Assembly: GCF_963675165.1 (NCBI RefSeq)
Contig: NC_087391.1
Coordinates: forward strand, 1,321,001 to 1,385,000
Length of the DNA: 64,000 bases
Origin: Halichondria panicea
Taxonomy: Eukaryota > Porifera > Demospongiae > Suberitida > Halichondriidae
Direction: 5' to 3'
Shown here: positions 38,659-59,547 of the stretch, in pieces
How positions within the stretch are numbered: position 1 is the stretch's first letter
Layout of the letters: every line of letters starts with the position of its first letter
Translations under genes and position numbers: made by a program
The notes under the pieces: generated by a model
Database searches by the model: none
Seen by the model: only the letters and a program-made list of their open reading frames with translations
What the model was told of the DNA's origin: nothing

Positions 38659-41600
38659 TTAGTTTGTTCTATCGCCAAATGAGTCAGGTGGCATTGACAA
38701 GCAAGTTTGCCATATGTACATGGTGGATATCGATGGAGCCTGAACTAAATACGTCCTTAGGCTAGTTTCTATGGTAATAATGTTTCTCATGAGGTGGTCT
38801 TTTTTCTTGACGTTCTGGTACACTTTAGTGATATCAGTGAGACGAATCACCCCTTTGGGGACTTCACGATTCTCATACGACTATATAAGGAGAATGAAAA
38901 TCATAATCACATGCTGGGTGTATGGTGAATCACATGCTAAGGGTACATATATTGGGGGCGTCTGCACATGTCACATGTTATAGAATTGGGTGTATGATGA
39001 ATCACATGCTAAGGGTATATACGTTGGGGGCGATGTATGGTCATTAAGGTAAATCATATCATGCTATGGGTACATGCATGGATTGGTAATTAAGGTAAAG
39101 TACATGCTAAGGGTATATAAATTGGGGGTGTATGCACATGTCACATGTTCAGGGTATATTGGGGGTGTGGTAATTAGGAAAAGCACATGATAAGAGTACA
39201 CTATAGTACAACAGTGGATGTATCGTAATTAAGCTAATGGTACTCTGGTGTATGGTATTAACACGATTTGTATGGTAAGAACATGCTACTGTAAATGGGA
39301 TGTATGGTCACATGCTAAAGGTACATTGGGGGTGTATGGTCACATGATACGTAATGTATAGCACATGACTTCAGCACACTTACAGCTTTGTTCTCGAAGT
39401 AAGCTAGATACTGGCAGTCAAAGTCCAGCACAAACCATCTCTGAAGCCAGTTTTTACGCACACCTGTGGCACCATCACAGTTAGTACATGCAGACACACT
39501 GCTATAAACATACCACCTATCTTAACGAGGTTTCCTTGGCAAATGGTCTGTCGTAGTTCAACTTGTTTACACAATGAGGAATCAAGACCTGAAGAGAGTT
39601 AGGATAAAGCAAGACTTCATCAATGGTGGAGATGGTTTATACTGACCTTCTTTTTGTAGGTACTGCTCAATGCTGTGGAATCTAGGCGGCTTGTTCGTTG
39701 CAGGCTTGGGTGGGGGGGTGGGCTTAGACCTCACTAGAGGGGGACTGTAGTGATCCTTTAGCGACTGATCAAATAACTCATCTGATTCAGAAATAAGGTT
39801 TAATTTAACGTTGATTTTACAATCAATGATATGGCCACTCCTAGGAGTGGTACAAAGAGTGATACAAAGGCCAGAGAGGCACCCATATCTCAAATGTACA
39901 CAAAAACAAACCCCATCCACCTCTGCATAATTTAACCACAAATGTTTGTCACAATAATTATTGATGGGTTATCTGGAAAGCTTGAGGAATGGAACAACAA
40001 AGGATATGGTCAATATCGTTAGTAAACTCACTAACGGAATACAGACGCTACTCTGCTATGGTTTCCACCAAATGACAAACCACTAAATTAAAAAACCTGA
40101 TCTCACCTCTTGGCATGAGTGGAGGGGGGACATTCCCTTCCTCGTTGAACCGAGGAGAATAGCCAGAGGGCTCCAAACTCACTCGCTGAGATTCCAGTTT
40201 CTAAATAAGGAGATAAGGAGTGGTGGTTAGCATAGCCCAGATAATCAATGACAACAGGGTAACAAAAGTATGTGGGCTCACTATATAGTGTGGTTGAGGT
40301 GCAGACACTACATGTAACTGATAAGTACGGTGTATTTGTGTGTGATTATAGTGACTTGTGTACTATAAGTTGTGAAAACCAAGTGTAGGGCTAAACCAAC
40401 CCAGACTGACCTTGTATGTGCCCAGTAACACTTCCAACTGCTTCAGCAATACACTTGGTTGATGTACCCTATCCTGTAGAATCAACACATTAATTAAGGA
40501 ACTGTCTATCAGCCCCATTCCACATAAGTCTGTGTCTAGGTTACGGAGAAATGTCTGGAGATTGAGAGAGAGCACATTCCCCATAAATCAATGCTGTGTG
40601 ACGCCATTGATATGCGTCATTAAGCAGGAGTAATTAACTTAACAGACAGACAGTATGCTAATCGTTTCAAAGGGTTAACGGCAGGCCATGACACAGCTGT
40701 CACCAAAACAACTTTCTACAGTCAGGTTAATGGTTTCGCTTGTCAACGAATCTCCTTTAGCACAAAAAAGAGACTCATAAGATCATAGGGATAGGTACAG
40801 TCAGTACAGCATTGCTCACACGCCAAGATCTATTATACAGTTGTAACATGCATACTACAACAGCTTTCCGATTGAGAACTGAATGTGCACTTTACAAGCA
40901 AAATGACAGTGGCAGAAGTACCAAAACTTAAGGGGAAAGCAAAAATAGAACCTATGGTTTACTCTATTACTGCCCCTACCCTTACTCTAACATTAAGTAC
41001 TAAGCCATCCAGCCAGCACCCATTTTATTCTGGACACAAATATACGTATTGTACATGAGGACACTATAAACGTTAGATATAATTATTACATCTTACACGT
41101 GCCATCTACCAACATCTACCAAAACGAGAGTGTCTGTTGTGTGTGGGGGTGTGCGTACCTGAGTCTTGTATCTGCAGTAGTACGTGGTCCACAGCCGGAG
41201 CCGAGGGAGCGAATGTGACGGGACAATCACACTGAGGGGGAGGGGGGCAAACCACATGATAAGATATCAGTCATGAATGCACACATGCAGGCACACCCCT
41301 TTTGAGATAACAATCTAGAACGTGAAATAAATAAGTTGCAGTCCAAACCACAGATTGAATTTAGCTTCCTAATTGATAGTATAGTACCAGAGAGGCGCCA
41401 TCCAGCCAGCCAGACTGACCACCATGGCAGCTAGGCCACAAATGTAAAACAAAGGATAGGTTGACTATAGTAATCCTGAAGTCTGCATATTCAACAGACA
41501 CCATAGCAACAACAGAACAGCCTTAGGCTACATGTTTGTAATTAACATACACATTACGTAAGATATTAAAACACCAATCTTTTTCAGCTGACAAATATCA

Positions 41601-59547: not shown

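Follow-up and report, generated by a model that had tools for sequence, protein, structure and literature searches.

Tandem duplications at four splice junctions of an SBF/MTMR5-13-like gene in the sponge Halichondria panicea

Results

The gene and its predicted protein

The stretch of DNA analysed here (the window) comprises 64,000 nucleotides of the Halichondria panicea genome (C15:1321001-1385000, in an assembly of 131.5 Mb and 39 contigs). Its principal feature for this study is a gene resembling SBF (MTMR5/13), a member of the myotubularin family (Table 1), the exons of which were called by splice consensus and reading frame from 57484 down to 38659. When the 22 exons are joined, they form a single open frame of 1332 amino acids with a closing stop, and this frame remains open across all four of the copied junctions described below. 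The phosphatase part of an earlier, hand-joined version of the gene model matched the myotubularin phosphatase domain (PF06602) at 2.6e-78, and hand-joined pieces of the C-terminal part of the protein matched the PH domain (PF00169) at 9e-12. Solved chains of MTMR2 match the phosphatase part at 2.5e-50. Active myotubularins carry a catalytic Cys in the loop that we compared. At this position the gene reads HVLVAFDCGWDRTTQ and the aligned MTMR2 chain reads VHSSDGWDRTAQ; therefore, the myotubularin phosphatase of this gene is probably dead, its catalytic Cys having been lost. A dead phosphatase is a trait of SBF/MTMR5-13, and the gene combines a phosphatase domain lacking the catalytic Cys with a C-terminal PH domain, as expected of that group.

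A further exon upstream corresponds to the first half of a GRAM domain. Hand-joined to the exon at 54.6 kb, it yields a GRAM match of 23.6 bits, which is exactly the cut-off, and its link to the exon at 57.4 kb is unsettled. Between 57484 and 55401, the model contains approximately 610 amino acids with no Pfam match, apparently inserted inside the GRAM domain. The DENN domain (PF02141) has 13 matches in the genome, none of them near C15:1.36-1.395 Mb, and 200 bases upstream of the gene are recorded as N; in the paralog on C13, a DENN match lies about 6 kb from the myotubularin exons. Near the run of N, an exon encoding CCCH zinc fingers was observed at 60607-61510 (PF00642, two stretches, 1.2e-19).

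Table 1. Positions of the gene, the arrays and the associated features within the window
Feature	Position	Strand	Remarks
SBF/MTMR5-13-like gene	38659..57484	minus	Model of 22 coding exons, 1332 aa
Further upstream exon, first half of GRAM	58804..58983	minus	Borderline GRAM match once joined by hand with the exon at 54.6 kb
Acceptor array, 54.6 kb	54630..54949	minus	TRF; CA tract, AG, then CCCGCTATACCC
Acceptor array, 51.2 kb	51158..51640	minus	TRF; real acceptor 51184
Donor array, proximal part	49125..49408	minus	TRF; holds real donor 49365
Transposon with terminal inverted repeats	47152..49124		Splits the donor array
Donor array, distal part	46900..47151	minus	TRF; decoy donors 47068, 46988, 46908
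TG-rich array, 42.3 kb	42297..42581	minus	TRF; one partial acceptor copy
Two-copy 23-bp duplication across a homeobox-gene exon donor	36913..36958	plus	TRF

Four copied junctions

Four exon-intron junctions of the gene have local copies, namely the acceptors at 54642, 51184 and 42319 and the donor at 49365. As a preliminary description of this DNA had stated, tandem arrays lie at 42.3, 46.9-49.4, 51.2 and 54.6 kb, each at a junction supported by the gene model (TRF together with the 1332-aa open frame), three acceptors and one donor are copied, and the real junction is the terminal copy in all four cases. By our own count there are 22 further copies (decoys), close to the two dozen first reported, and AG or GT is intact in 19 of them. 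For twelve of these 19 (seven acceptors at 54.6 kb and five donors), the score equals or exceeds that of the real site in the same array.

In the array at 54.6 kb, the copies are 25-43 bp apart, and upstream of the real acceptor there are eight copies of AG/CCCGCTATACCC behind CA tracts; the seven that bear AG score 5.8-8.8, compared with 5.8 for the real site. The copies at 51.2 kb, each with approximately 27 exon bases, are 63-70 bp apart. All seven decoys there have AG, the farthest has an altered exon start, and the scores are 5.4-11.9 versus 12.1 for the real acceptor. The unit of the donor array is 80 bp long, consisting of 44 exon-like and 36 intron bases. It provides six copies of the exon end and donor, five of which score 6.6, equal to the real donor, while one is cut by a transposon; a genome search with the sequence of this array found this locus alone, with five matches within 2.6 kb. 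At 42.3 kb, the TRF array is TG-rich and begins 2 bases outside the exon, and the junction itself has a single copy, at 42494, 175 bp from the real acceptor and with AT in place of AG. The view that each of four separate minisatellites uses a junction as its unit thus held for the arrays at 54.6, 51.2 and 49.4 kb and not for that at 42.3 kb, where there is one dead copy; four junctions are indeed involved, and 46.9-49.4 kb is one array split by the transposon. The decoys are decaying: AG is missing from two of the 16 acceptor decoys, and the transposon has cut one of the six donor decoys. Long CA/TG runs, of 28 and 38 nt, occur in two of the acceptor arrays, and a 12-nt C run occurs in the remaining one. 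It had been proposed that all of the arrays touch TG/CA or poly-G tracts, which does not apply to the donor array; there, TG/CA runs reach 6 nt and G/C runs 4 nt at most.

As far as homology can tell, the four junctions are real. The predicted frame reads ...ASST/RYTLSVAF at acceptor 54642 (T codon split), ILND/HPDLCPTYP at 51184 (H codon split), WDRTTQ/VVSLAQ at donor 49365 and FLM/CLAEESYS at acceptor 42319. The last three fall within the MTMR2 alignment, and the junction at 54642 rests on the frame and the borderline GRAM match. Seven residues that an earlier model placed before VVSLAQ aligned to a gap relative to MTMR2, which supports the final WDRTTQ/VVSLAQ junction.

The transposon and the age of the donor intron

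The arms of the transposon are inverted repeats of approximately 515 bp that are 94% alike, and the genome holds 10 other full-length matches, 89-98% identical. At this locus the flanks repeat CCTGTG, and the 6-base flanks are identical in 3 of the 10 copies inspected, this copy included. On the far side, the flanking repeat restores a short CACAG/GTCTG, which was left out of the decoy count. Because the donor array is split by the transposon, the array is older than this insertion.

The C13 paralog has an intron at the same codon boundary as the donor-array intron (GCTCAG/GTACAG ... CTCCAG/GTGGTG), and a TRF scan of 3.2 kb of this paralog detected one TG run only, at the donor of another exon. 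The donor intron is therefore old and the array was added to it. Intron gain was dropped as an explanation, the one intron tested, that of the donor array, being common to the C13 paralog. The TG run of the paralog (L004:1693-1804) has 56 copies and lies immediately past the predicted donor.

Consequences of decoy use

When the decoys were used in translation, a premature stop followed in 7/7 cases at 51.2 kb and in 5/5 donor cases at 49.4 kb, three of the latter past the transposon. At 54.6 kb, four of the seven decoys remained in frame to the normal stop, adding 12, 23, 59 or 73 amino acids, and three led to a premature stop. Stop-free alternative proteins could come from the 54.6 kb acceptors only. 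We also dropped the idea that the arrays are coding tandem repeats, since use of the copies at 51.2 and 49.4 kb runs into stops.

There was no clear sign that the exon-like parts of the decoys are more constant than the intron-like parts. In the donor array, pairwise differences numbered 12/440 in the exon-like part (five copies) versus 2/108 in the intron-like part (three copies). At 51.2 kb, the exon-like part of six decoys showed 0/405 differences and the intron-like part 107/360, a value that is too high because one row is shifted by a single base.

Similar duplications in other genes

The homeobox-gene duplication in Table 1 lies at the end of a predicted exon (36545-36932) that joins in frame to the next exon (37055-37262), in which there is a Homeobox_KN match at 2.5e-8. 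About 10 kb beyond the window, in an NVL-like gene on the minus strand (9755-9950 of L028, which is C15:1385001-1395000), a donor array with a 69-bp period and 2.7 copies repeats the donor that follows the Walker A exon; the joined exons of this gene match nuclear valosin-containing protein-like at 8.2e-92, and the match spans that junction. A myotubularin paralog on C6 has two arrays whose start coincides with a predicted donor and which include one exon base at most. Given these cases, junction-straddling duplication is not peculiar to one gene, and the preliminary statement that no other gene of the window shows the pattern is contradicted by the homeobox gene.

Do the arrays meet junctions more often than expected?

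We scanned the gene model, together with junctions called by an exon finder of our own making, for local copies of 18-mers made up of 6 intronic and 12 exonic bases (at most two mismatches, within 1 kb). Copies were found at 4 of 44 exon ends in the gene (42 junctions and the two outer ends), at 0 of 122 elsewhere in the window, where the gene's own two upstream exons were included, and at 11 of 634 in a sample of other loci. The sample is not a random sample of the genome; it consists of four random 10-kb stretches, L028 beside the window, and the neighbourhoods of myotubularins, kinases and the transposon, excluding L011 and L023-L027, which overlap the window. Its exons are predictions, checked by homology for the NVL-like exons only. 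None of the 11 sample matches was accepted as real. L006 and L007 are the same place, with the predicted exon on the strand opposite to the gene; the matches in L016 and L035 were not counted as real, nor was that in L022, where the copies are 616 bp apart; the two matches in L031 come from a pair of similar exons separated by 883 bp, and the four in L048 from weak exons within an array. The sensitivity of the scan is limited, as it missed the homeobox and NVL-like cases. The exon finder recovered 21 of the 22 exons, with both ends right in 17 (one after allowing for a trimmed base), figures that are optimistic because its splice model was seeded on this same gene. Densely clustered protein-kinase-like exons were observed at about 0.87-1.7 Mb of C3.

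Repeated sequence is abundant in the introns of the gene: with the transposon left out, 15.1% of wholly intronic 18-mers recur within 1 kb, versus 1.5% of exonic ones, and random 18-mers recurred in 161/3000 trials in the window and 70/3000 in the sample. When the 42 junctions were slid rigidly along the gene, a mean of 4.48 repeated 18-mers was obtained versus the 4 observed, and 66% of shifts reached 4. A second, stricter model placed the array units at random, disallowing units that lie wholly in an exon or contain one. For this gene, it predicted that 0.98 of seven arrays should straddle a junction, compared with four by eye (P 0.008, or 0.004 if a different unit length is taken for the array at 42.3 kb), a P value that overstates the case because the gene was picked for looking striking. 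To the left of the gene in the window, 0.63 of 11 arrays were expected and 1 was seen, and in the sample, which has 29 arrays of period at least 20 and 25 after exclusions, 1.72 were expected and 1 was seen by eye. L007 and L009, the same places as L006 and L002, were left out of these counts and of the mechanical counts below. By our own arithmetic, the pool holds 6 cases by eye versus approximately 3.3 expected (Poisson P ~0.12).

We also recounted by mechanical overlap between TRF arrays and predicted exons scoring at least 12. In the sample, this rule returned two cases, L006 and L035, both doubted; the L048 array encloses predicted exons entirely, and the NVL-like exon is lost because it scores 10.6. 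In the gene, only 2 of the 7 TRF arrays reach into an exon, because, as delimited by TRF, the arrays at 42.3 and 54.6 kb begin outside the exon. The pool becomes 5 versus 3.3 when the one mechanical rule is applied throughout, and 7 when this gene is judged by eye and the rest mechanically (P ~0.05). The straddling count therefore depends on judgement. That the duplications exceed chance was not borne out by sliding; unit placement gave an excess within the gene, before any correction for how the gene was chosen, and a weak one in the pool. A special link of the duplications with splice sites is established neither way.

Discussion

The duplications are real and largely fit the preliminary description. 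How might a gene come to carry copies of four of its own junctions? We consider random local tandem duplication in a repeat-rich gene, with selection keeping the copy attached to the exon, to be the best explanation, and give it a probability of roughly 0.73. The duplications would arise by replication slippage or by unequal exchange, in many cases between simple repeats, and would strike the gene regardless of its exon structure. Where the duplicated segment by chance spanned a junction, the copy on the exon body would be held by selection on the protein, and the remaining copies would become intron automatically, free to multiply, to drift and to take a transposon insertion. The real junction would hence be the last copy in an acceptor array and the first in a donor array; it is always terminal because a tandem duplication across a junction leaves no copy but the outermost in contact with the body of the exon. 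We infer that the terminal site is the one normally used. The proposal that introns grow by local duplication is supported by these observations.

Another reading is that the splice-site sequence itself (the CA or C tract of an acceptor, or a GT-rich donor) seeds slippage, so that minisatellites arise at junctions more than elsewhere. The excess of straddling arrays in the gene, the long runs in the acceptor arrays and the two arrays that start at predicted donors in the C6 paralog speak in its favour. However, the sliding test gave no excess, the donor array is without a long run, and outside the gene the 11 window and 25 sample arrays yield 2 straddling cases by eye, or 3 by the mechanical rule, for an expectation of about 2.35. 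We regard this reading as doubtful, though conceivable; the recount, by exposing how far the pool depends on judgement, raised it slightly and lowered the probability of random duplication from 0.75 to 0.73. The form in which it was first put forward, seeding at 3′ splice sites, draws at best a hint from a pooled excess of less than twofold on a handful of cases, in which one copied junction is a donor without a long run and the two outside cases are donors.

It had also been suggested that the decoys buffer or tune splicing, that is, that they are selected and used, most strongly at 54.6 kb, where they would put His-Thr-rich loops into the GRAM region. The seven AG-bearing decoys of that array match or exceed the real acceptor in score and four of the seven would stay in frame, and the complete identity of the exon-like parts at 51.2 kb would likewise be predicted. 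Against this, use of any of the 12 usable decoys at 51.2 kb and 49.4 kb would lead to a premature stop, the exon-like parts of the donor array are no more constant than the intron-like parts, the copy at 42.3 kb is dead, and the terminal position of the real sites is a matter of geometry, so that a splicing buffer seems very unlikely. Least credible of all is that the arrays are artefacts of assembly or sequencing. The 200-N run at 59548-59747 lies near the gene, and copy numbers of TG-rich arrays are difficult to assemble; yet the copies differ from one another, a transposon flanked by a 6-bp repeat has interrupted one array, and in the genome search the donor-array sequence matched this locus alone. 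A bolder reading would be that exon-edge duplication is frequent in this genome and constitutes a standing source of extra splice sites, the stop-free alternative acceptors at 54.6 kb inserting His-Thr-rich loops of variable length into GRAM and thereby turning differences in array length into heritable variation of the protein; we consider this unlikely.

Turri et al. (1995) are said to have described an IFI6 minisatellite with multiple splice donors, and Zhuo et al. (2007) reportedly described introns derived from tandem arrays. The account of IFI6 (G1P3, 6-16) in PMC4526556 describes a minisatellite in which two downstream units act as donors, giving three mRNA species. Both loci have tandem units that include an exon end with its donor; in IFI6 the downstream units are used, whereas the present decoys are candidate sites and acceptors make up three of the four junctions. 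By the features of a minisatellite across a junction of this kind, the unit exceeds 10 bp (TRF periods of 64 and 80), weakly so at 42.3 kb, where the junction is copied once, and exon bases with an intact splice site occur in 19 of the 22 copies, none of them at 42.3 kb. In human segmental-duplication genes, PMC2812944 reports internal tandem repeats at exon-intron boundaries that can alter splicing, with 27 intron modifications; those repeats are likewise placed at boundaries, but belong to recent primate paralogs, most with RNA support, whereas the present gene was read from DNA. In the potato RdRp gene, according to PMC4974935, a tandem duplication across an intron-exon boundary produced a new intron. 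There too the duplicated segment crosses a boundary with branch site, pyrimidine tract, acceptor and exon bases, but a new intron resulted, whereas in the sponge gene the duplications made existing introns longer. Drosophila, too, is reported to have introns that arose by tandem duplication (PMC2891723). The phenomenon is therefore known, with precedents in print, and the present case is notable for four instances in one gene.

Among these features, the acceptor array at 54.6 kb would repay experiment most. The gene offers a clear, countable example of intron growth from exon edges. With 19 intact copies, it may live with a surplus of strong decoys, and it provides a good natural system for testing how the terminal copy is chosen by the spliceosome.
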